From NCBI GenBank assembly GCA_020851035.1, contig JADZDM010000002.1:315995-379994 (forward strand): 64,000 nucleotides of DNA, given 5' to 3'. The position numbers and the translations under genes are program-made. Numbering within the stretch: position 1 is the first letter of the stretch; every line of letters starts with the position of its first letter. This stretch comes from Gemmatimonadaceae bacterium. Lineage in GTDB: Bacteria > Gemmatimonadota > Gemmatimonadetes > Gemmatimonadales > Gemmatimonadaceae. The notes beneath the pieces were generated by a model. That model did not search any database. It saw nothing but the letters and a program-made list of their open reading frames with translations, and was not told the origin of the DNA. Shown here piece after piece: positions 26,276 through 42,826 of the stretch.

Positions 26276-28498
26276 CTACTTGCCCGGATGGTATGTCCGC
26301 TCGGTGTGCCCGGTGAGTTGCGACCGGTAGAAGTAGACGTCGCGGAGGTCGCCCGCCGCGTAGCGGGCGGCCTGGTCGTTGAAGTGCTTCGCCTCCGGTC
26401 GGCTGTCCAGCCCACCGGCGGTGACGGCCTTCGCCCGCACGCTGTCGCCGAACTCCACGATCGCAACGAAGCTGTTGCCGCTGGTGCCGTACCAGCGCCT
26501 GGTGCCGGGGTACGGCCGCGCGCCGAACGACGCGAGTGAACCCCAGCGTGACGACGTGAACGGCACCGGGATGCTCGCGCCCTCATCGGAGAACGGCTGC
26601 ACGATGTCGCCCGTCAGGCGCTGGAAGCGGTTGATGTCGCCCCAGGGCGTCTGCCAGGTGCCGAAGGCCGCGCTGAGCGAGTCGGTGGCCGCCGCGAGGC
26701 TGGCCAGCTTGACGGCCGGCGTGGTCTTCCCCGTCATGTAGTCGTACACCGACATGTCCTCGCTCTCGGCGTCGGCGCGCGAGTGGCGCCAGAGCTCCTC
26801 GCCCCAGTACACCGCCAGCGAGGTCGGCACCGAGGCCGCCGCCCAGCGATGGTCCCAGCCGCGCAGCGCCGTGACCGGGCCCGCCAGCTTCGCCTTGAGC
26901 GGGTCGGCCGGCGGCAAAGCGTCATACGCCGTGACCAGCAGCGGCACCAGGTCGGCGAACGCCGGCAGGTAGCTGTCGTACGCCGCGTCGCGCAGCGACG
27001 CGATGGTGAAGTCGGACTTCCCGGACAGCACCCGCATGGCGTGGATGCCGCGCGGGTTCTCGAACCCTTCCTCCATGTAGCGCGGGAACGCCGACCGCTT
27101 CGGGCTCGCCGTCCCCGACACCGAGTACGGCCAGTTGTTCGTATTCTGGATCCAGCCGGTGGACGGGTTCAGCACGTTCGGGCTCTCGTCCAGTGAGTGC
27201 ACCCCGCGATAGCTCGTGGCGCTGTCGCTGCCATCCACCGGCGCGTGCCAGTCGAACGCCAGGCTCCGGCGCGGCACGTGGTTGGCGTGGAAGTACGCGA
27301 TGTTCCCATCGGCGTCGGCGTAGACGGTGTTGTTCGAGGAGTTGGTGTGGAGCTCCATCGATGCGCGGAACTCCGCATAGCTGCGCGCCTTGGTGCGCGT
27401 CCAGCTCTGCGTCAGGGCCTTCACCGGCTCCTGCATCAGGGCCACGCTCACCCACTTGCCGTCCGCCTGCCGCACCACCGGGCCATGGTGCGTGGAGTAC
27501 ACCGTGAACGTCCGCGGCGTGCCCCCCTTGATGGCGACGGTCACCTGCCTGGACACCACCGGCCGGTCGCTCCCCGCAAACCGGTACACATACCCGCTGT
27601 CGCGCTTCGTCACGGTCTCCGCGTACTCGTCGATCACGTCGGCGCCGCTGGAGGTGTGCATCCAGCCGGTCCGGTCGTTGAACCCCTGGTAGATGAAGAA
27701 CTGTCCCCACGTGGATGCCCCGTAGGCATTCAGGCCTTCCTCGCTCACCATCTGCGACTCCTCGCGGAAGAAGAACGAGGTGTGCGGGTTGATCAGCAGG
27801 AGGGCCCGCTTCGCGGCGGTGTTCTTCGGCGCGATCGCGATGCCGTTGGACCCCGTCGGCTCGTGCGCGGGCGCGAAGCGCTCGGCGGAGGGCCGCGGTG
27901 CCACGTCCGTCGCCGCCACCGCGGTCCCGCCGCCGTAGAACGCCTCGAGCTGCTTCAGCGAGACGTCCTCGATGTCACCGCCAATGCTCCCCTCGCTGAA
28001 GGTGAGCGCCATCCAGGGCTCGAAGTGCGTGAGCACCTTCGGGGCCGTGCCCGGATGGGTGTGCAGGTAGAAGTTCAGCCCGTCGGCCCAGGCCGTGCAG
28101 AGGACCTGCAGCCACGCCGGACTGGCGGCGAACTGTCTCCGGATCTCCACCGGGTCGATGAAGAGCTTCATCCGCAGGTCGCGCCAGGTGGCCGATGGCC
28201 CCTCCGCCTCCGCCCGGCGGCCCATGGCGTCGAGGTAGTTCATCTCGATGCGGTTGAAGTCGTCCTCGGCCTGCGCGTAGATCATGCCGAAGACGGCGTC
28301 GGCGTCGGACTTGCCATAGATGTGCGGGATGCCCCAGTCGTCGCGGATGATGGTGACGCGCGCCGCCTGCTCCTCCCACTTCGCGACGTCGGCCGGTGCC
28401 GCCGCGCTCGCGGCCGCCTCCTGGCCACCGTCCCGCGTGGTGCCACCCGAACAGCCGGTCAGGACGAGCACTGCCACCAGACACGCGGACTTTCGCAT
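26276..28498 (-). CDS. Penicillin acylase family lipoprotein (Ntn hydrolase)
   Basis: A 740-residue S45-family protein with lipoprotein signal MRKSACLVAVLVLTGC (Cys16). S45 enzymes self-cleave so that a Ser becomes the new N-terminal nucleophile. Here the site is Ser217 in EPTGSNGIAIAPKNT, after a spacer rather longer than in classical penicillin acylases. Upstream is the alpha-chain-like part (WGIPHIYGKSDADAVFGMIYAQAEDDF). Substrates of such enzymes include penicillins, acyl-homoserine lactones and other amides. This clade, with FEPWMALTF and a long spacer, is commonly annotated only as acylase. The start was set at ATG 28498 to include the signal. Confidence 0.88.
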   Translation of the reverse strand: MRKSACLVAVLVLTGCSGGTTRDGGQEAAASAAAPADVAKWEEQAARVTIIRDDWGIPHIYGKSDADAVFGMIYAQAEDDFNRIEMNYLDAMGRRAEAEGPSATWRDLRMKLFIDPVEIRRQFAASPAWLQVLCTAWADGLNFYLHTHPGTAPKVLTHFEPWMALTFSEGSIGGDIEDVSLKQLEAFYGGGTAVAATDVAPRPSAERFAPAHEPTGSNGIAIAPKNTAAKRALLLINPHTSFFFREESQMVSEEGLNAYGASTWGQFFIYQGFNDRTGWMHTSSGADVIDEYAETVTKRDSGYVYRFAGSDRPVVSRQVTVAIKGGTPRTFTVYSTHHGPVVRQADGKWVSVALMQEPVKALTQSWTRTKARSYAEFRASMELHTNSSNNTVYADADGNIAYFHANHVPRRSLAFDWHAPVDGSDSATSYRGVHSLDESPNVLNPSTGWIQNTNNWPYSVSGTASPKRSAFPRYMEEGFENPRGIHAMRVLSGKSDFTIASLRDAAYDSYLPAFADLVPLLVTAYDALPPADPLKAKLAGPVTALRGWDHRWAAASVPTSLAVYWGEELWRHSRADAESEDMSVYDYMTGKTTPAVKLASLAAATDSLSAAFGTWQTPWGDINRFQRLTGDIVQPFSDEGASIPVPFTSSRWGSLASFGARPYPGTRRWYGTSGNSFVAIVEFGDSVRAKAVTAGGLDSRPEAKHFNDQAARYAAGDLRDVYFYRSQLTGHTERTYHPGK

Positions 28499-28683
28499 TC
28501 GGACCTCGAAGGGGGCGGGAGAATCGGACGACGGGGGATGCTCGCTTCCGGTCCACGCTTCTGCAACGGGCATGGCCGCCGGGAGGCTGATCGAGCGCCA
28601 CCCTTTCGCCGGCGAGGTCGCCCGGGCACGTTTTTCTGGCGCGGCTCCCGCGTCGCGTCACCTCACGCCTTCCCCGCCCCGAC

Positions 28684-33909: not shown

Positions 33910-33982
33910 CCGTGAAACGACTCAGAGTCAGGACCCTCCGTGAAACGACTCTGAGTCGGGGCCCGCGAAAGGGGACAGAGTC
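33910..33982. repeat. Direct repeats with GACTC-N-GAGTC palindromes
   Basis: A 20-base phrase CCGTGAAACGACTCWGAGTC occurs at 33910-33929 and 33938-33957 (period 28). Each copy contains an 11-base palindrome, GACTCAGAGTC and GACTCTGAGTC, and a partial third copy GACAGAGTC is at 33974-33982 after GAAAGGGG. The arms GCCCC at 33906-33910 and GGGGC at 33958-33962 can extend pairing between the copies. It lies between the decarboxylase start and the end of the HEAT lipoprotein gene. It could be a terminator-like structure, a REP-like repeat or a protein site. No T run follows. Confidence 0.7.
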
Positions 33983-33985
33983 AGC

Positions 33986-35341
33986 TCACGGGAACGGCCG
34001 CGGACGCGGCTCGGGCCACGGCCAGGGATCGACGCGCCCCCGCCCTGCCAGCCCACGCACCGCCGCCTCACGCACTTCCGGGTCGCTGGACTCGAGCAAC
34101 GCCGTCAGCGCCCCTTCCGACCGCTCGCCACTCTTCAGCAGCGCGCGCAGCACCGCCTTCCGCACCTCGGGGTCCGTCTCCCGCTTGAACGCGGCGCGCA
34201 GTGCCGGCAGCGCGGCGGCGTCAGACACCTCGGACAGTGCCCACGCCGCCTTGGTGCGCACGTCGTCGTCGGAATCCGCCAGCGCCGTGATCAGGCCTTC
34301 CGGCGCCCTCCGCACCTCGCTGTTGCCGATGGCCCACGCTGCGGTGGCGCGCACTCGGCGGTCGGCATCACGAGCGGCAGCCTCACCCAGCACCACGGCT
34401 GCCGAGCCATCCTCGATGTTGCCGAGCGCCCAGGCGGCGGTCTCCCGCACCCGCGGCGAGGCATCGCGCTGCACCGCCTGCTGCAGTTCGCGCGACGCGC
34501 CATCATGCTCGATGTTGCCGAGTGCCCAGGCGCACATCTCGCGCACGCTCGCGTCGCCGTCTCGTCCCAGCACGTCGGCCAGGTCGCGCACTGCCGACTC
34601 GGCCTCGAGGTTGCCCAGCGCCCACGCGGCCGCGCGGCGAACCGACGCCGTGCGATCGTCACGGAGCACGCGCAGCAGTGCCGGCACGGCGCTGGCCGAG
34701 TCCAGCTGGCCGACGGCGCCGATGACACTTTCACGCACCGTGGAATCGGCATCGGCCACCGCCCCGAGCAGCCCGCGCAGCGACGTCCCATCCTGGATGC
34801 GTCCCAGCGCCCAGGCGGCGTTCGCCCGCACCGTTGCGGCGGCGTCGCGTAGTGCCTTCACCAGCACCGTCGTGGCCATGTCCTTCGGCTCGATCAAGCC
34901 CAGCCCATTCGCCGCCGCCGCACGCACCGCACTGTCCGCGCTGGCGAGATGTGCCATGAGCCCGCGCGCTCCCGCCTCGCCGCCGGCACTGCCCAGCACG
35001 CGCACCGAGAGTTCGCGGACGCAGGCATCGCTGCTGGTCACGTTCTCGAGCAGCAACTGCACGTCGGCCGCCGGCAACGCGGCGCTGCGCTCGGCTTCCA
35101 CGCGGATGTGCGGCAGCGTGGAGTGTGGCGCGCGCACGCTGCCGCCGTACCAGCCGCGACGCTCGACGCCATCCGCGGCCAGCGAGCAGACGATGGGCGA
35201 CGCACCGTGCGCCGCATCCAACAGGGCGCGCAGGTCGGTGGGCGACGCGGCCACGCCGGGTGCCGCGAAGGCGTCCTCCACCGCGACGTCGGTGGAGCAG
35301 GAGCTGAACGCCGCGGCGATCAGGAGGGATGAGAGGCGCAT
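33986..35341 (-). CDS. HEAT-repeat lipoprotein with proline/arginine-rich C-tail
   Basis: A 451-residue protein. The N-terminus MRLSSLLIAAAFSSC looks like a lipoprotein signal (Cys15, with Phe at -3, slightly atypical). After about 110 residues there are about eleven HEAT-type repeats of about 31 residues, the central ones reading VRxxAAWALGNIED. The last repeat runs into the tail LAGRGRVDPWPWPEPRPRPF-Pro. The neighbouring M56 protease also has HEAT repeats and nearly the same tail. A 16-bp palindrome matching those in front of blaI lies 39 bases upstream of the start (35380-35395). It probably acts in the envelope, as partner, ligand or competitor of the M56-HEAT sensor. This is inference. 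Confidence 0.85.
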   Translation of the reverse strand: MRLSSLLIAAAFSSCSTDVAVEDAFAAPGVAASPTDLRALLDAAHGASPIVCSLAADGVERRGWYGGSVRAPHSTLPHIRVEAERSAALPAADVQLLLENVTSSDACVRELSVRVLGSAGGEAGARGLMAHLASADSAVRAAAANGLGLIEPKDMATTVLVKALRDAAATVRANAAWALGRIQDGTSLRGLLGAVADADSTVRESVIGAVGQLDSASAVPALLRVLRDDRTASVRRAAAWALGNLEAESAVRDLADVLGRDGDASVREMCAWALGNIEHDGASRELQQAVQRDASPRVRETAAWALGNIEDGSAAVVLGEAAARDADRRVRATAAWAIGNSEVRRAPEGLITALADSDDDVRTKAAWALSEVSDAAALPALRAAFKRETDPEVRKAVLRALLKSGERSEGALTALLESSDPEVREAAVRGLAGRGRVDPWPWPEPRPRPFP

Positions 35342-35379
35342 GGCACGGTTCTCCGGTACGGGGAAGGGACGACGGATTG

Positions 35380-35395
35380 TGTTGATTTTTCAGCA
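35380..35395 (-). promoter_or_regulatory. Putative BlaI operator upstream of the HEAT lipoprotein gene
   Basis: The plus strand reads TGTTGATTTTTCAGCA, which matches the perfect palindrome in front of blaI (TGCTGATTCTTCAGCA) at 14 of 16 positions, with the same spacing of half sites. It is 39 bases before the ATG of the lipoprotein gene. The minus-strand AAAAAT inside it could serve as a -10, but no good -35 is visible. Confidence 0.65.
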
Positions 35396-35443
35396 CACGA
35401 GGGCCGGAAAACGGCGCGGGTACGCGCCGGAGTCCTCGTGCGA

Positions 35444-35569
35444 GTGGTGCTGGTGGTGCTGGTGGTGCTGGTGGTGCTGGTGGTGCCGGTCGTGCTGGTG
35501 GTGCGGGTGGTGCGGGTCGTGCGGGTCGTGCGGGTCGTGCGGGTGATGCGGGTGTTACTGGTATTGCAG
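35444..35569. repeat. 9-bp minisatellite, 14 units
   Basis: Fourteen tandem 9-base units, from GTGGTGCTG (first four identical) through GTCGTGCGG to GTATTGCAG, with a steady drift along the array. It lies between the putative lipoprotein operator and the stop of the M56 gene. In one plus frame it reads Gly-Xaa-Ala and in a minus frame Pro-Ala-rich, but no start codon with a ribosome-binding site makes it a gene. The array should be length-variable by slippage. Confidence 0.85.
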
Positions 35570-35621
35570 ATAATCCGGGCATTGCCGTCTGCAGCCCGGG
35601 CAGGCGCGCGGCATTGCGTTA

Positions 35622-37649
35622 CTACGGATACGGGCGCGGCCGGGGACGCGGCTGCGGCCAGGGATCGGCACCGCGGCCGGCCAGCGAACGGATGGCGATG
35701 GCACGGAGCTCCGCGTCCCCGCCGTCGATGATGCGCTGCAGCGCGGGCACCGCCGGGTCACCCATCACGCTCAACGCGCGCACCATGGCGACCTTCACGT
35801 CACGGTCGGTCTCCCGGACCAGCGCCGACTCCAGCGCGCCGGCGGCCGCACCGTCCTCGATCTGGTGGAGTGCCCACGCCGCCGTGGCGCGCACCGCGGG
35901 ATCACGATCGGTGAGTGCGTCCTTCACCGCGGCCGGCGCACGTCGGGGACTCGCGTTGCCCAGGCCCCACAGCGCCGTCTCGCGGACGATGGCATCGGCG
36001 TCGCCCGCCGCCATCGCGAGCGCTTCCACGGTGCCCTGCGAGTCGCCATCGGCGCCCTCGCTCAGCGCCCACGCCGCCGTCTCGCGCACCGATCGGTCGC
36101 GATCCGTTCGCAGCACTGCGGCCAGCGCCGGCGCCACCCGGTCGCGATCGCCGGCGTACGCCAGCGACCACGCCGCCATCTCGCGGACCCGCGCACTCGC
36201 GTCTGACCGCACGGCGAACACCAGCGCGTCGATGGCCCGGTCGTCCCCGTCGAACTCGTGCAGCCCCCACGCCGCGATCCGCCGCAGCGACGGCGCCGTG
36301 TCCGTGCGGAGCACCCGAGCCAGCGACGCCGCCCGCCCGGAGCTGTCCGCAGGCACCGCGCCCCTCGCTGGCGCCTCCGCGTCCCCATCCTCGCCCGAAT
36401 CCGGTGACAGTGCACCGATTCCCGCCGCGGAATGCGGTGACAGTGCACCCGGTGCCCTGAATCCCGCGACCTGCGCCGTGTCAGCCGAGCGCCGCAGCGA
36501 ATCCACCAGCCGGTCACGCACGGAGTCCGCCAGCGCCGGCGTGAGCGCCGTGAACGTGCGTCCGCCAGGCGCCGGAACCTGCACCCTCGGCACCATTGCC
36601 CCGGTGATGATCGCGAACAGCATCACCCCTCCTGCCAGCGTGCTGGCCTGCACGCGTGTGGGCGCCGTGCGCGACAGCGTCGGGTCGAGGATCGCCAGCA
36701 TGCGTCCCTCGAACTCCGAACGCGTCGCCATCGCCATCGCCACGTTCGGCGTGCCATGGTTCCGCACCGATGTCACGATCTCGAGCAGGTGCTCGGCGTA
36801 GTCGCTCGCCCGCGTGCCGCAGGCCAGGGCGAGGTCATCGCAGGCACGCTCACTCTCGGCCCGCAACCGGCGCGCCGCCGTCCAGGCCAGCGGGTGGAAC
36901 CAGTAGAGCGCGCTCACCACGCGGCCCAGCGTGTGCGCGACGATGTCATGCCGGCGCACATGTGCCAGCTCGTGCAGCAGCACGGCGGTGCGACGATCCG
37001 GTGTCCAGTCCGCACTCTCGCGCGGCAACACGATCACCGGTGTGCGCAGTCCGCACGCGAACGGCATGGTGACGTCGGCGCGCACCAGGCGCGGCAGCCT
37101 CTCGAGGCCGAGGCGGTCAGCGATCTCCATGGCACTGCCCTGCCACGCCTCGTCCCCGACATCCGTCGCGTGCGACAGGATGCGCCGCACCGACCACTGC
37201 CCGTGGAGCAGCCACGCCAGCAGTGCGACGGCGACGCCAGCCCACGCCAGCAGCAGCACCTGCACCAGCGACGGCGCCGGCCATGGCGAGGTCGTGCCAA
37301 TCGGCGCGTTCATCGTGCGGGGCGGCACCGGCGCCCTCACCAGCGCGTCATCAACCACCGCGTCCGCGCGCGAGGTGGCCAGCGGTTCACCCGTGTGTGC
37401 TGCCGGAGCTGCCGCGACCGCAGGCGTGCCCCACGCCGACGGCAGCACCGCCAGCCGCACCGGGCTGAACGCCGCCAGCACCGGAATCGCGAGCAGCGCC
37501 AGCAACGACGCCAGCCACACCAGGTGCCGGGCCGTGGCCGAGGTGCGCGCCATGAGGGTGGTGAGCGCGAAGCCGACCAGCAGCACCGCGGTGGCCTTGC
37601 CGATCATCAGGAGTGCCGGCGTCAGCGCGACGAATGATTCGATACGCAT
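35622..37649 (-). CDS. M56 (BlaR1/MecR1-like) membrane metalloprotease with C-terminal HEAT sensor domain
   Basis: A 675-residue protein. Residues 1-350 are a BlaR1-type M56 protease: hydrophobic segments near 17-33, 43-61, 128-148 and 336-352, zinc motif His226-Glu-Leu-Ala-His230 (LLHELAHVRRHD) and a downstream EXXXD (ESERACDD). In BlaR1 the part after the fourth helix is the extracytoplasmic beta-lactam sensor. Here that place is taken by a linker and about seven HEAT repeats (VRETAAWALSEG, VRATAAWALHQIED), ending with the tail LAGRGADPWPQPRPRPRP-Tyr-Pro. It follows blaI by six bases. By analogy it senses a protein-type signal outside and triggers cleavage of the repressor. Confidence 0.9.
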   Translation of the reverse strand: MRIESFVALTPALLMIGKATAVLLVGFALTTLMARTSATARHLVWLASLLALLAIPVLAAFSPVRLAVLPSAWGTPAVAAAPAAHTGEPLATSRADAVVDDALVRAPVPPRTMNAPIGTTSPWPAPSLVQVLLLAWAGVAVALLAWLLHGQWSVRRILSHATDVGDEAWQGSAMEIADRLGLERLPRLVRADVTMPFACGLRTPVIVLPRESADWTPDRRTAVLLHELAHVRRHDIVAHTLGRVVSALYWFHPLAWTAARRLRAESERACDDLALACGTRASDYAEHLLEIVTSVRNHGTPNVAMAMATRSEFEGRMLAILDPTLSRTAPTRVQASTLAGGVMLFAIITGAMVPRVQVPAPGGRTFTALTPALADSVRDRLVDSLRRSADTAQVAGFRAPGALSPHSAAGIGALSPDSGEDGDAEAPARGAVPADSSGRAASLARVLRTDTAPSLRRIAAWGLHEFDGDDRAIDALVFAVRSDASARVREMAAWSLAYAGDRDRVAPALAAVLRTDRDRSVRETAAWALSEGADGDSQGTVEALAMAAGDADAIVRETALWGLGNASPRRAPAAVKDALTDRDPAVRATAAWALHQIEDGAAAGALESALVRETDRDVKVAMVRALSVMGDPAVPALQRIIDGGDAELRAIAIRSLAGRGADPWPQPRPRPRPYP

Positions 37650-37655
37650 GTCCGA

Positions 37656-38069
37656 TTACCTCCCGCTCTTGCGCGCGCCGGCGATCTTCGCGCGGAGAGC
37701 ATCGATCTCGCGCTCGGACACGGAGGTGTCCGACATCCGCAGCAGCGCAGCGACGGCCTGCTCGGTGGAGCCGGCGAAGTAGGTCCGCACCACGTGATCG
37801 AGCATCTCGGCCTGCGCCTGCTCGGTGGGGGCGGCCGGGAAGTACACGTACCGCGGCCCGTCCTCGCGGAACTCGATCAGCGCCTTCTCGCCCAGGATGC
37901 GGAGAATGGAGCGGACGGCCGAGTAGGTCGGCGGGTCGGGGAGGTCGGCCATGATCTCGGCCACCGTGGACTCGCCGCGGCGGTGGAGGATGTCCATGAC
38001 CTGCCGTTCCCGCCGCGTGAGGTCCTCGGTGGGGCTGGGCTGCTTCTTCGGGGCGGGCTTCGGCGTCAT
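37656..38069 (-). CDS. BlaI/MecI/CopY-family transcriptional repressor
   Basis: A 137-residue winged-helix repressor. The DNA-binding domain is in residues 15-90 (LTRRERQVMDILHRRGESTV, YSAVRSILRILGEKALIEF), followed by a C-terminal dimerisation helix region (EMLDHVVRTYFAGSTEQAVA). BlaI-type repressors bind as dimers to palindromes and are cleaved when the partner M56 protease is activated. The gene is six bases upstream of the M56-HEAT gene, and two palindromic sites lie in its promoter, so it very likely represses its own operon. Confidence 0.94.
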   Translation of the reverse strand: MTPKPAPKKQPSPTEDLTRRERQVMDILHRRGESTVAEIMADLPDPPTYSAVRSILRILGEKALIEFREDGPRYVYFPAAPTEQAQAEMLDHVVRTYFAGSTEQAVAALLRMSDTSVSEREIDALRAKIAGARKSGR

Positions 38070-38090
38070 GGGCGGTCCTCGGAACGGGTC

Positions 38091-38106
38091 TGCTGATTTT
38101 TCAACT
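38091..38106 (-). promoter_or_regulatory. Putative BlaI operator, second site
   Basis: The plus strand reads TGCTGATTTTTCAACT and matches the perfect site next to it at 13 of 16 positions. The centres of the two sites are 17 bases apart. It lies between the promoter and the blaI start codon. Confidence 0.6.
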
Positions 38107-38107
38107 G

Positions 38108-38123
38108 TGCTGATTCTTCAGCA
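38108..38123 (-). promoter_or_regulatory. Putative BlaI operator, perfect palindrome
   Basis: TGCTGATTCTTCAGCA has perfectly inverted 6-base half sites (TGCTGA/TCAGCA) around a 4-base centre. It overlaps the proposed -10 of the blaI promoter, so a bound repressor would block RNA polymerase. Confidence 0.7.
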
Positions 38124-38141
38124 TTACGCCACAGAAGTCAA
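38113..38141 (-). promoter_or_regulatory. Putative sigma70-type promoter of the blaI-M56 operon
   Basis: On the minus strand TTGACT (38136-38141) is followed after 17 bases by AAGAAT (38113-38118, 4 of 6 matches to TATAAT). The -10 falls inside the perfect operator. It is 44-72 bases upstream of the blaI ATG. Read by eye only. Confidence 0.55.
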
Positions 38142-38194: not shown

Positions 38195-41100
38195 CTACGG
38201 CCGCCGGGAGGAGCGGCACTCCCCCGCCCGGCGTTCCGCCACCCGCGGGCGTTCGGTCAGGTACCGCACCCGGTCGGACGCGGACAGGCACACCGGAGAC
38301 CGGCGCAGCGGCCCGAGCGCCACCTCCGGGTCGGTCGGGTACAGCTCCGCCGTCTGGCCGGCGGTCGTGGTCAGCACCCACCGCCCGTCCGGGCTCGGCA
38401 GCGCCTGCGTCACCAGCGTGCCGTCCCCCGGGAGCGCCACCGACCCGCCGCTGCCATCGGCGTTCCACAACCGCGCCTCGCCCTGATTGAATCCAAGGGT
38501 CACGATGCGGCGGCCATCGGCAGTGAAATGCGCGCTCCGTACCTCGATGCCACGCGGGCGCAGCCGCACCAGCGACGTTGCCGACGCCGCATCCCACGCC
38601 ATCACCGAGCCGTCTTCCGACACCGTGAGCAGGCGCGCATCGTCGGCCGAGTACTCGAGGCGCGTGATCGGTTCGCGCTGGCCGAGCAGCACCCGACCGG
38701 TGTCGGCCTTCGTGAGCGACACGAGGCGCGCACTGCCGTCCAAGTGCCCGATGGCGAGCATCGTGCCGGCGCGATTGAACGCCAGCGCGGTGGGCGTGCC
38801 GCGGCTGGCGATTCGCACCGGTGCCCCGCCGGTCACGAACGAGGCGAGCTCGATGCCCCCGCCAACGGCGCAGACGGCAACCCGTTCACCGTCGTCCGAG
38901 AGCGCGGCGCAGCGCCGCTCGCGATCACTGGCCTGCCGCACCACGCGCGCACGCGCCGGTGACGTGGCGTCCCACACGTGGACCTCCGCGGAGTCACGCA
39001 ACCACAGCCCGCGCCGCGCACGGGGCGCGAAGTCGGCGGCCACCACACGCCGCGCCGCCGCCGCGCGACTCGTGCGCCGCGTCCCGCCAGCCAGCCGCGA
39101 CGTCACGGGCTCGGCATCGCAGCGCAGCGCGTCGATCTCTGTGTCGCCGGGCGCAAACGCCAGCGCGCACAGGTCGGCGTTGGCACTGTCCACGACGCGT
39201 CGCACGCGTGCCGTGTCGTCCAGCCGCACCACCGAGATCTCGCCGCGCCGCGTGCCGAGCGCGAGCTGCCGGCCATCCCGCGAGAATCCCGCGGCGCCGA
39301 CGTCATCCAGGGTGTCACCCACGGCCGATGCCGCGACGTACAGTCGTGGCACCGGCAGCTCCCACAGGCGCACGCTGCCATCCTCCGACGCCGTCAGTAC
39401 GCGGTCACTGCGCGGCATGAACAGCTCCGAGACCAACGCATTGGTGTGTCCCGCCAGCGGCACCAGCGCATCGCCCTCCCGCCCGCTCCAGACACGCGCC
39501 TGGAAGGTGGTGCCGCTGGTGAGGATCAGGCGCTGGCCGTCCCGCGCGAACGCCGCTGACTGCACAGGGTCGCTGGTGCCGCGCAACCGCGACTGCGTCT
39601 CGCCGCTGGCCACGTCCATGATGCGCACCTCCTCGTCCGCCGATGCCGAGGCGAGCTGCGTGCCGTCGCTGCTCAGCGAGAGCGAGAAGACCGCATCGCC
39701 GTGCGGCGTGAACGTGCGAAGCAGCCGGCCGCGCACGGCATCGTGGACCTGCATCCTTCCCCTGGCCGTGCCCAGCGCCACCGTGCCGCCAGTGCGGCTG
39801 ACATCCAGCGCGACGATCGCGTCCCCCGCCACACGCACCGTGCGAGCCGGCGCGGCACCGCCGCTGGACGGCCACCACTCCACCGCCCGGTCGCCGTTGA
39901 TCACCACGACCTGGCGGTCGCCATCCACCCATCGCGCCAGGTCCACGACCTCGGACGCCGTGCCGATCACGCTCGGTGGCACGCTCCCGTCCACGGCGAA
40001 CACCCGCGCGTTCGTGCTGTCGTATGTCACCAGCAGTCGTCGTCCGTCGGCGCTGAACTCCAGTCGCTGTACCCCCCGCGTGCCACCAATCAGCGCCACC
40101 GGTGCGCCGCGCGGCTGCAGGGGCCAGACCGTCACGCGACCATTCGCCTCACCCACCGCGACCTGCCGCGCATCGGGGCTGAACTGCAGCACCTGCACCG
40201 TGTCCGCCGCCCGCGGCAGTGAGAGCGGCGCGCCGCCACCGCTCAGCGGCCACACCCGCACCACGCCATCCTTGGCCGCGGTGGCGAGGGACTGCCCATC
40301 CGCACTCACCACCGCATCGGCGATCCCAGCCTCGTTCTCGAACGTCGCCACGACACGCGGCACACGACGCAGCTCCAGCGCTGCGCCCAGTATCGCCAGC
40401 CGCGTGGCATCGTCGGCACTGCGCACCATGCTGCTGTCGATGCTGCCAAGCAGCTGCGTCGCCACCAGCGGATCCTCGTTGACCAGCGCCGTCGCCGAGC
40501 GCACGATCGACGCGATGCGCACCTGCTCGGCGCGCGCACTGGCCCGCCGTCCGCCGATGACCGCGACGACTCCGGCCACCACGATCGCAAGCACTGCGGC
40601 CGCCGCTCCGGCCAGTGCAACGCGCCGGCCGCGCACGCTGCGTTGCGCGAAGGCCAGCTCGGTGACGTTCAGCCACGGCGCACGACGACGCACCAGCGGC
40701 GCCAGCTGCGCACTCCGCGACGCGTCGCTCCACAGCAGTCCACGCTTGCCTGCCCCCTCGGCACGCTGCCAGTCCTGCGCGGCGCGACTCAGCCGCTGCT
40801 GCTGCGACAGCGGAAAGATCGCGTCGTTCTCCCGCCGCACCCACTCGGCCAGCCGCCCCCAGCCGCGCACCAGCGCGTCATGCGCCGGCTCGACGAAGCG
40901 TTCGCCATCGGGCTCGCGGCCCTGCACCAGCAGGCGCGCCTCGACCAGGCGCTGCACGATGGCGCTCGCCCGCTGCTGCTCGGCGGTATCGGCGAAGGCC
41001 AGCTCGGCGTCGCTGGCCCGCCGACGCGCGATGCCCGTTCCCTCCGCGGTGACCAGTCGCAGCAGCACGCGACGCAGCGTGCCTCGCGCCGTCTCGTCCA

Positions 41101-42826
41101 GCGAATCGTGCTCGGCCTCGGCGCGTGATCGCAGCGCGCCAACCACACCGCCCACCGCGTCGAAATCCGCGCGCGTGATGGCGCGGTCGCTGCTCTTGCG
41201 CTGCACGTAGCGGATGTACATCTCACTGAGCGCGAACGAAAGCAGCGGCAGCGGGCCCGGCGTCGCGACCACCTCGTCCAGCAGCGTCTCCACGAGGCTC
41301 GACGGGTCGAAGTACAGCACGCGCGCCTCGGCCGGCTTCTCGATCACGTCGCGCAGGCTGCTGCGCGACATGAGCGGCACGACGTAGCGTCCCTGCTGCC
41401 AGTGCTCACCGAGGCCGGCGCGATCGAAGTTCGGCTCGAAGTCGGTGCGCAGCGTGATCACCACGCGCAGCTGACCGGGATGCGCCGCGATGAGGCGCGC
41501 GAGCAGGGCGATGATCCGTTCGCGTTCGCCAGCCCGTCGCGCGAGGGTGATCAATTCCTCGAACTGGTCGATCACCAGCAAGAGGCGCGACGCCGGCTGC
41601 GCCTTGAAGCGTGCCGCGACCAGGGCAGTGATCGTCTCGGCTGTCGCCCCCTGCACCGACCGGCCCGGCGGCGCGAGCGCGGTCGCGAGGGCCGTGAGCG
41701 GCGCCGTGCCCGGGCGCACGATCGGCGCCACCTGCCATCCCGCCGCCGCCAGCGCCGGCACCACGCCTGCCTTCACCAGCGACGACTTGCCACTGCCCGA
41801 CGCGCCGAGCACCACCGTCAGCGACTGCGCGGCGATTCGCTCAGTGAGCGACGCGATCTCCGCCCCGCGGCCGAAGAACAGCGGCGCATCGGCGGACTCG
41901 TACGACCCGAGCCCGCGCCAGGGGTTGCTCTCGAAGGTGAGTGGTGGCGCCGGCGGCAGTGCCAGGTCGCGTCCCGGCACGAAGAACACGAACTCGCCGC
42001 GATCATGCTTGCGCAGCGGCCACAGGCGCGGTGTCTGTTCGCGCCCCGCCGCGATCGCCGCCGACTGCAGCGCCTCGCCGACATAGAGGTACAACTCGGT
42101 GGCCGTGACGAGGCCGTCCCCGGTGCCGCGCGGCACCAGGTCACCGGCACCGTGCAGCGCATCGAACAGGGCCAGTGCAAACGGTGAGTGTGCACCATCA
42201 CCCGGACGGCTGCCGAGGGCGCCGGACGAGAGCTGGTCGAGCGCCTTCTGGTCCTGCGACGCCGAGGTGATCACCTGCCACGCGGGGTCGCGCACGTACC
42301 GTTCGTACTTCTCCTGGTGCACCACGCCGGGCTCTTCGTCCACGTCGCGCACCCCCGACCAGCGAAAGGCGCCGGAGAAGCAGGAGTCGAGGATCACGAG
42401 CATGTGTCGGCACGGCAGCGCCAGCAGCGCGTCGTGCACCAGCGGCATGTCCAGGAAGGTGGCGTCGTCCGCGCGCGATGCATCGATGGGGAGCAGGTAG
42501 CCGTTCGGGCCCTCGTCTCCGTCGCGTGCCACGCCGTGTCCCGCGAAATAGAACAGCACCCGGTCGTCAGGGCCGAGGCGGGCGGGCAGCTCCTGCGTGA
42601 GCACGGCGGTGATCCGCGCCTGCGTTGCCTCCTCGTCGAGCAGGGAGACGATGTCGTAGCCGTGCTCGCTGGCGAGCACCTCGCCCAGCCGGCGGGCGTC
42701 GTTCACAGCCGTCCGCAGCGCCGGGATGCCGTTACGGTAGTGGTCGATTCCGATCACGACCGCAAGCGAATGCGCGAAGGGTGACGCAGTCGGCATCGGG
42801 TGGTGCGAGGAGCTGTTGGTGGCCAT
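38195..42826 (-). CDS. Caspase-like peptidase / STAND-type ATPase / WD40 protein
   Basis: A 1543-residue multidomain protein. Residues 20-285 are a peptidase C14 domain with the catalytic dyad His97 (FYFAGHGVARDG) and Cys149 (VILDSCFSGAF). Residues 315-690 form a novel-STAND NTPase with Walker A GASGSGKS (341-348) and Walker B LLLVIDQFEEL (Asp420). A single membrane helix is at about 736-758. Residues ~825-1500 are WD40-like beta-propeller repeats (FSPDARQVAVGEANGRVTVW, LSSDGTQLASASADEEVRIM). Such caspase-STAND-WD40 proteins occur in bacteria with complex life styles and some act in programmed cell death or defence. No target is known here. The start is ATG 42826. An alternative is the Met eleven codons in. 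Confidence 0.93.
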   Translation of the reverse strand: MATNSSSHHPMPTASPFAHSLAVVIGIDHYRNGIPALRTAVNDARRLGEVLASEHGYDIVSLLDEEATQARITAVLTQELPARLGPDDRVLFYFAGHGVARDGDEGPNGYLLPIDASRADDATFLDMPLVHDALLALPCRHMLVILDSCFSGAFRWSGVRDVDEEPGVVHQEKYERYVRDPAWQVITSASQDQKALDQLSSGALGSRPGDGAHSPFALALFDALHGAGDLVPRGTGDGLVTATELYLYVGEALQSAAIAAGREQTPRLWPLRKHDRGEFVFFVPGRDLALPPAPPLTFESNPWRGLGSYESADAPLFFGRGAEIASLTERIAAQSLTVVLGASGSGKSSLVKAGVVPALAAAGWQVAPIVRPGTAPLTALATALAPPGRSVQGATAETITALVAARFKAQPASRLLLVIDQFEELITLARRAGERERIIALLARLIAAHPGQLRVVITLRTDFEPNFDRAGLGEHWQQGRYVVPLMSRSSLRDVIEKPAEARVLYFDPSSLVETLLDEVVATPGPLPLLSFALSEMYIRYVQRKSSDRAITRADFDAVGGVVGALRSRAEAEHDSLDETARGTLRRVLLRLVTAEGTGIARRRASDAELAFADTAEQQRASAIVQRLVEARLLVQGREPDGERFVEPAHDALVRGWGRLAEWVRRENDAIFPLSQQQRLSRAAQDWQRAEGAGKRGLLWSDASRSAQLAPLVRRRAPWLNVTELAFAQRSVRGRRVALAGAAAAVLAIVVAGVVAVIGGRRASARAEQVRIASIVRSATALVNEDPLVATQLLGSIDSSMVRSADDATRLAILGAALELRRVPRVVATFENEAGIADAVVSADGQSLATAAKDGVVRVWPLSGGGAPLSLPRAADTVQVLQFSPDARQVAVGEANGRVTVWPLQPRGAPVALIGGTRGVQRLEFSADGRRLLVTYDSTNARVFAVDGSVPPSVIGTASEVVDLARWVDGDRQVVVINGDRAVEWWPSSGGAAPARTVRVAGDAIVALDVSRTGGTVALGTARGRMQVHDAVRGRLLRTFTPHGDAVFSLSLSSDGTQLASASADEEVRIMDVASGETQSRLRGTSDPVQSAAFARDGQRLILTSGTTFQARVWSGREGDALVPLAGHTNALVSELFMPRSDRVLTASEDGSVRLWELPVPRLYVAASAVGDTLDDVGAAGFSRDGRQLALGTRRGEISVVRLDDTARVRRVVDSANADLCALAFAPGDTEIDALRCDAEPVTSRLAGGTRRTSRAAAARRVVAADFAPRARRGLWLRDSAEVHVWDATSPARARVVRQASDRERRCAALSDDGERVAVCAVGGGIELASFVTGGAPVRIASRGTPTALAFNRAGTMLAIGHLDGSARLVSLTKADTGRVLLGQREPITRLEYSADDARLLTVSEDGSVMAWDAASATSLVRLRPRGIEVRSAHFTADGRRIVTLGFNQGEARLWNADGSGGSVALPGDGTLVTQALPSPDGRWVLTTTAGQTAELYPTDPEVALGPLRRSPVCLSASDRVRYLTERPRVAERRAGECRSSRRP

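Follow-up and report, generated by a model that had tools for sequence, protein, structure and literature searches.

M56 proteases of the BlaR1 type have been known chiefly for sensing penicillins. The sensor of BlaR1 is a membrane-held relative of class D beta-lactamases, and the system induces beta-lactamase. BlaR1 has an N-out/C-out topology with a cytoplasmic active site, carries the catalytic motifs H201EXXH and E242XXXD, and cleaves BlaI directly; its extracellular loop EL1 takes part in signalling, and its autocleavage loop has a Phe, F284, at P1' (PMC9834060).

The window, a stretch of 64,000 nucleotides from a Gemmatimonadaceae bacterium (contig JADZDM010000002.1, positions 315,995 to 379,994), contains three genes on the minus strand, which run leftward in the order blaI, M56-HEAT gene and HEAT gene:

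37656-38069, minus strand: BlaI/MecI-family repressor, 137 aa, PF03965 (Penicillinase_R)
35622-37649, minus strand: M56 membrane metalloprotease with a C-terminal HEAT domain, 675 aa, PF05569 and PF13646
33986-35341, minus strand: HEAT protein, predicted to be secreted, 451 aa, PF13646 (168 bits), with a hydrophobic N-terminal signal, Cys52/Cys107, a Trp ladder and a C-terminal tail

Only six bases separate the end of blaI from the start of the M56-HEAT gene. The blaI product matched the full-length PF03965 profile (85.1 bits, residues 17-129, cut-off 22.6), and the M56-HEAT product matched PF05569 (Peptidase_M56) with 116 bits at residues 18-319, followed by PF13646 (HEAT_2) with 92 bits; beyond residue 319, its Pfam matches were to HEAT/Arm families only. 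The Pfam profiles thus confirmed the initial annotation of a BlaI-family repressor, an M56 protease with HEAT repeats in the position of the BlaR1 sensor, and a HEAT protein. A penicillin-binding sensor domain was not found by Pfam in the C-terminal part of the M56-HEAT protein, and the NCBIfam BlaR1 and MecR1 models scored far under their cut-offs on this protein (75 bits for blaR1_generic, cut-off 400). The trio is BlaR1-BlaI-like by anatomy and is not a beta-lactam sensor. The BlaI protein remained below the cut-offs of the BlaI_of_BCL and CopY/TcrY models, and CopY-like metal regulation was rejected from the CopY/TcrY score (34.4 bits vs 121.95). The HEAT protein was likewise rejected as a phycobilin lyase or QueG-type enzyme, as it consists of repeats only and the respective profile scores were far under the cut-offs. 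A PDB sequence search with BlaI and an Rfam search gave no match. The product of the gene directly upstream of blaI (38195-42826) is 1543 aa long and combines caspase-like, nSTAND1 NTPase and WD40 domains. Just past the stop codon of the HEAT gene lie two 28-bp direct repeats (33910-33964), each with a dyad of the GACTC-AGAGTC type. The gap between the M56-HEAT stop codon and the operator of the HEAT gene is filled by 13 copies of the 9-bp tandem repeat GTGCGGGTG (35438-35554); the gaps between the two genes in relatives are mostly shorter.

The M56-HEAT protein was modelled with AlphaFold on a 35-sequence alignment (mean pLDDT 83), whereas an alignment-free fold left the protease half at pLDDT 56. 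The following parts were recognized:

36693-37598, minus strand: BlaR1-like membrane and zinc-protease part, residues 18-319, PF05569, superposing on 8ext
36960-36974, minus strand: HEXXH motif HELAH, residues 226-230, with E267-xxx-D271 downstream, from the alignment of 35 M56 proteins
35682-36344, minus strand: HEAT domain at the sensor position, residues 436-656, seven helix pairs, modelled with pLDDT mostly 93-98

The model shows four long helices (3-32, 38-61, 128-160 and 332-351) and a protease part of mixed alpha/beta structure; a disordered linker leads to the HEAT solenoid, which is followed by a disordered tail. The solenoid contains 14 helices, so that the count of about seven HEAT repeats made from sequence held. 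Residues 9-311, in the protease half, superposed on cryo-EM structures of Staphylococcus aureus BlaR1, on 8ext with Z 18.9 and rmsd 2.8 over 238 residues and on 8exr with Z 16.1 and rmsd 3.3 over 234 residues; residues ~432-660 matched alphaRep binders with Z ~25 and rmsd 2.3-2.9. HELAH, E267 and D271 were invariant across the 35 aligned M56 proteins and correspond to H201EXXH and E242XXXD of BlaR1. F313, in the sequence S-E-F-E-G-R, was kept in 17 close relatives and absent from the list of positions conserved at 90% or more in the wider set; its distance from the EXXXD motif is about that of F284 in BlaR1 (PMC9834060). The HEAT domain comes after predicted membrane helix four in a fold resembling that of BlaR1, which is N-out/C-out (PMC9834060), so that homology predicts the domain to lie outside the cytoplasm. 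The prediction of an extracytoplasmic HEAT domain therefore passed the topology check.

A putative dyad operator, TGNTGAnnnnTCANCA, precedes both blaI and the HEAT gene and was found at no other place in the genome of 4.97 Mb:

38108-38123, no strand assigned: putative operator O1 before blaI, TGCTGATTCTTCAGCA, a perfect dyad (TGCTGA-TTCT-TCAGCA)
38091-38106, no strand assigned: putative operator O2 before blaI, TGCTGATTTTTCAACT, a weaker copy 17 bp from O1
35380-35395, no strand assigned: putative operator O3 before the HEAT gene, TGTTGATTTTTCAGCA (TGTTGA-TTTT-TCAGCA)

A scan of the whole genome with the pattern TGNTGANNNNTCANCA returned only the blaI and HEAT-gene promoters, while the reversed pattern used as a control returned one site. 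A promoter-like match at 38113-38141 has its -10-like hexamer inside O1, as expected of a repressor site. Among relatives, a site matching at 10 or more of the 12 positions was present in 30/31 blaI promoters and 29/29 HEAT promoters, compared with 1.2% of dinucleotide-shuffled regions; the sole miss (L073) was due to a mis-set gene start, and the site is present there. Two sites spaced 17 bp apart occurred in 20/31 orthologous blaI promoters. With the AT-core form of the pattern, the cassette was found in all of 18 whole genomes, with two control sites in total. The earlier claim that the HEAT gene has an operator matching that of blaI was thus upheld, by O3 and by the sites in the relatives. 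The dyad also reached 10/12 matches in 7/28 promoters of BlaI systems without HEAT, and is therefore of BlaI type and not private to the cassette. Control of a beta-lactamase or PBP gene, as in BlaR1/MecR1 systems, was not found, the operators here standing only before blaI and the HEAT gene, and regulation of beta-lactam resistance was rejected because no operator lies outside the cassette in this genome. A penicillin-amidase family protein (PF01804, 408 bits) is encoded a few kilobases from the cassette (26276-28573); its gene has no operator. In three other loci (L114, L116 and L118), operator-like sites lie near the starts of MacB/FtsX-type permease genes, possibly by chance or as sites of other BlaI paralogues.

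The distribution of the genes was investigated in 395 Gemmatimonadota genomes, with the HEAT protein called at E<=1e-60. The HEAT protein occurred in 36 genomes, in a single copy in each save one assembly, and the M56-HEAT fusion in 38. Both were present in 32 genomes, one or the other alone in 4 and 6, and neither in 353; these lists were compiled by hand, and several of the single cases were contig ends or sub-threshold matches. As a unit, the trio is found in about one tenth of the sampled genomes. Non-redundant M56 genes with a HEAT C-terminus (46) and without one (37) were further compared, with at least 900 bases required for the downstream test. The HEAT gene came next after 40/42 M56-HEAT genes (39 directly, plus L092, which is cut at a contig end and whose HEAT gene is visible in L135), but after 0/29 M56 genes without HEAT (Fisher p 7e-18). 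A BlaI gene was upstream of 41/46 M56-HEAT genes; of the remaining five, four begin at a contig edge that truncates the locus, and one (L075) does have blaI, which had been missed through a split frame. Thus, the association of M56-HEAT genes with BlaI and with a HEAT gene, anticipated from this one locus, is near-exceptionless elsewhere. A wider conserved neighbourhood was rejected, as no flanking gene family was common to more than six loci. The named records with the fusion came from Gemmatimonadota MAGs, some labelled Gemmatimonas, and from two unidentified bacteria; the isolate Roseisolibacter sp. H3M3-2 carries the same blaI-M56 start, and a contig end cuts it before the HEAT part. The genome of the window itself encodes four other BlaI-M56 pairs (L012-L015), all without HEAT and with differing C-terminal parts, an array of M56 receptors with exchangeable sensors. 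This recurrence of all three genes together suggests a genuine, so far undescribed envelope-sensing system of a soil bacterium. No description of an M56 protease with HEAT repeats together with BlaI was found in the open-access papers searched, among which most subscription journals are missing.

The HEAT partner is predicted to be a conserved secreted protein. Its N-terminus was hydrophobic in all orthologues, and Cys52 and Cys107 were invariant in the alignment of 22 secreted proteins, a pair that would suit a disulphide outside the cytoplasm. A lipobox was detected by regular expression in just 4/30 orthologues, the protein of the window having only an atypical FSSC, and the initial description of the partner as a lipoprotein was accordingly rejected as a conserved property. 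The sensor and the secreted protein end in a common 13-residue Pro/Trp/Arg tail, approximately PWPWPxPRPRPFP:

35625-35663, minus strand: C-terminal tail of the sensor, PWPQPRPRPRPYP
33989-34027, minus strand: C-terminal tail of the HEAT protein, PWPWPEPRPRPFP, the most conserved stretch of this protein

In the 22 secreted HEAT proteins the tail P-W-P-(W)-P-x-P-R-P-R-P-x-P was nearly invariant, against a mean column identity of 46%, and in the sensors most prolines were invariant and the remainder looser. In 18 genomes the tail pattern was confined, with few exceptions, to the sensor and HEAT genes of the cassette; the match between the two tails that had been noticed in the window is therefore conserved and nearly confined to the pair. 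In several distant families the sensor lacks the tail, and L105 has a tailless sensor beside a tailed HEAT protein. Conversely, tailed HEAT proteins without an adjacent sensor or an upstream operator occur in G052 and G080 (Gemmatirosa kalamazoonensis plasmid 2). The stand-alone protein on this plasmid (L226, 5314-6714) has a full PWPWPWPRPRPFP tail, with no BlaI, M56 or operator nearby. Because of these tailless sensors and sensor-free tailed proteins, the tail appears to be primarily a feature of the secreted HEAT protein, a point in favour of this protein as the working output; the stand-alone proteins in G080 and G052 favour a role of the partner as output over one as ligand only, and indicate that pairing with a sensor is not obligatory.

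In a tree, the HEAT domains of the sensors and the secreted HEAT proteins formed two groups with similar inner branching; they are paralogues. In one family (L093/L098), exceptionally, both kinds clustered together with full support, so that duplication or conversion occurred more than once. The HEAT repeats carry the motif VRxxAAWALG. When the motif was aligned to alphaRep sequences, its Trp corresponded to position 26, which with 18, 19, 22, 23 and 30 belongs to the variable, target-contacting positions of alphaRep (PMC3754942). Trp occupies position 26 in 121/155 repeats of the secreted proteins and 74/85 of the sensors; in the other HEAT proteins of the genome the pattern caught too few repeats for this comparison, and one of them (L019) also has AAWALG. 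Tryptophans lined up in this way along the contact face would be well suited to bind a ligand of extended shape, for example a proline-rich peptide or a glycan.

The gene content, architecture, operators, conservation and paralogy described above are features of the sequences themselves; repression, cleavage and the direction of signalling we infer from them, and a ligand common to both HEAT proteins is suggested by the paralogy and the tail. On balance, at about even odds or slightly better, the trio is a switch of the BlaR1 type that acts by regulated proteolysis and has as its new sensor a tethered paralogue of its output. In this model, both promoters would be silenced by BlaI dimers, bound at O1 and O2 ahead of blaI-M56HEAT and at O3 ahead of the HEAT gene. 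The M56-HEAT protein would sit in the inner membrane, with its zinc protease toward the cytoplasm and its HEAT domain outside. On gain or loss of a ligand, probably an envelope protein, proline-rich peptide or glycan, by the HEAT domain, the protease would cleave BlaI, both promoters would open, and the secreted HEAT protein would be made. This protein should bind the ligand of the sensor, since it is a paralogue with the same Trp-lined face and Pro/Trp/Arg tail, and by removing the ligand it would switch the signal off. Several findings weigh against the model: tailed HEAT proteins that lack a neighbouring sensor, tailless sensors in several distant families, operators ahead of other genes in some genomes, and the dyad in BlaI systems without HEAT. 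The model lends itself to direct tests at its operators, its HEXXH site and its 13-residue tail.

Alternatively, the secreted HEAT protein may be a direct feedback partner that binds the HEAT domain of the sensor, perhaps through an exchange of tails, and, like a periplasmic inhibitor, keeps the protease inactive until stress draws it away. The paralogy of the two domains, their common tail, their single copies per genome and the near-perfect co-occurrence agree with this proposal, as do solved structures in which alphaRep domains bind one another via their concave faces (PMC3754942); we nevertheless consider it somewhat unlikely, given the free-standing HEAT-tail proteins in G080 and G052 and the loss of the sensor tail in several families that keep the gene pair. 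A related and more speculative idea, which we think unlikely, is that the tail itself is the ligand of the Trp-lined HEAT groove. In that case the sensor and the secreted protein would form the two halves of a device that exchanges tails, and protease activity would be set by whether the groove of the sensor is filled, be it by the sensor's tail or by that of the paralogue; to our knowledge, such a signalling mode is undescribed for M56 receptors.

It is decidedly unlikely that HEAT is a mere spacer or dimerisation module, with the membrane part or an extracellular loop as the sensing element and the HEAT gene as an output unrelated to the ligand of the sensor. Signalling through the EL1 loop of BlaR1 (PMC9834060) provides a precedent, and many M56-BlaI pairs have short or different C-terminal parts, but this explanation leaves unaccounted for both the presence of the HEAT gene after M56-HEAT genes only (40/42 vs 0/29) and the tail common to sensor and HEAT protein.

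In some genomes the operator also precedes genes outside the cassette. In six loci the cassette is followed by a same-strand DUF5916-CBM9 gene, as is one M56-HEAT gene without a partner; in two loci such a gene lies ahead of the cassette. Away from the cassette, the operator precedes DUF5916-CBM9 genes in four genomes (L106, L108, L115 and L125), twice as a pair with 17-bp spacing. In G023 (L107), such an operator pair precedes what seems to be a decayed copy. A single dedicated DUF5916 subfamily was rejected, as the cassette-linked copies do not form one clade. Trp ladders are able to stack on sugars, and these neighbours and trans operators would fit a regulon with an outer-membrane or glycan function, with HEAT proteins as binders of a glycan or a surface protein and DUF5916/CBM9 proteins as the working partner. 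We consider this improbable, because the linked genes do not group as a single clade, DUF5916 is a widespread family here, and no operator precedes those DUF5916 genes that were checked in the genome of the window.

The preferred reading, a proteolytic switch sensed through a tethered paralogue of its output, is best placed by comparison with known systems. CopY/TcrY copper repressors belong to the same repressor superfamily as the BlaI protein described here, with a model score below the cut-off; unlike them, this BlaI is cysteine-free and its gene is partnered with that of an M56 protease. Other BlaI-M56 pairs of Gemmatimonadota, Acidobacteria and Planctomycetes share the order of blaI followed by an M56 gene, but their C-terminal parts lack HEAT, and the HEAT gene is next in none of the 29 with enough downstream sequence. 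AlphaRep binders and natural HEAT/PBS-lyase repeat proteins are likewise built from HEAT repeats of 31-32 residues (Z ~25 against the HEAT domain of the sensor), whereas here the repeats are tethered to a membrane protease, or secreted with an N-terminal part and a tail, and Trp is fixed at a position that alphaRep libraries vary. The closest systems are BlaR1-BlaI and MecR1-MecI of staphylococci and Bacillus licheniformis, which likewise have a BlaI-family repressor beside an M56 protease, HEXXH and EXXXD motifs in the same membrane-protease fold, a sensor domain C-terminal to the final membrane helix, dyad operators in front of both the regulator and the output gene, and a sensor related to an output-type protein. 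The trio differs in having HEAT repeats in place of the penicillin-binding sensor, a secreted HEAT protein as putative output instead of beta-lactamase or PBP2a, and a common Pro/Trp/Arg tail on sensor and output. The cassette indicates that a sensor of a quite different kind can be fitted to this relay, and that the design rule, by which the sensor is a tethered paralogue of what is secreted as output, extends beyond beta-lactams.
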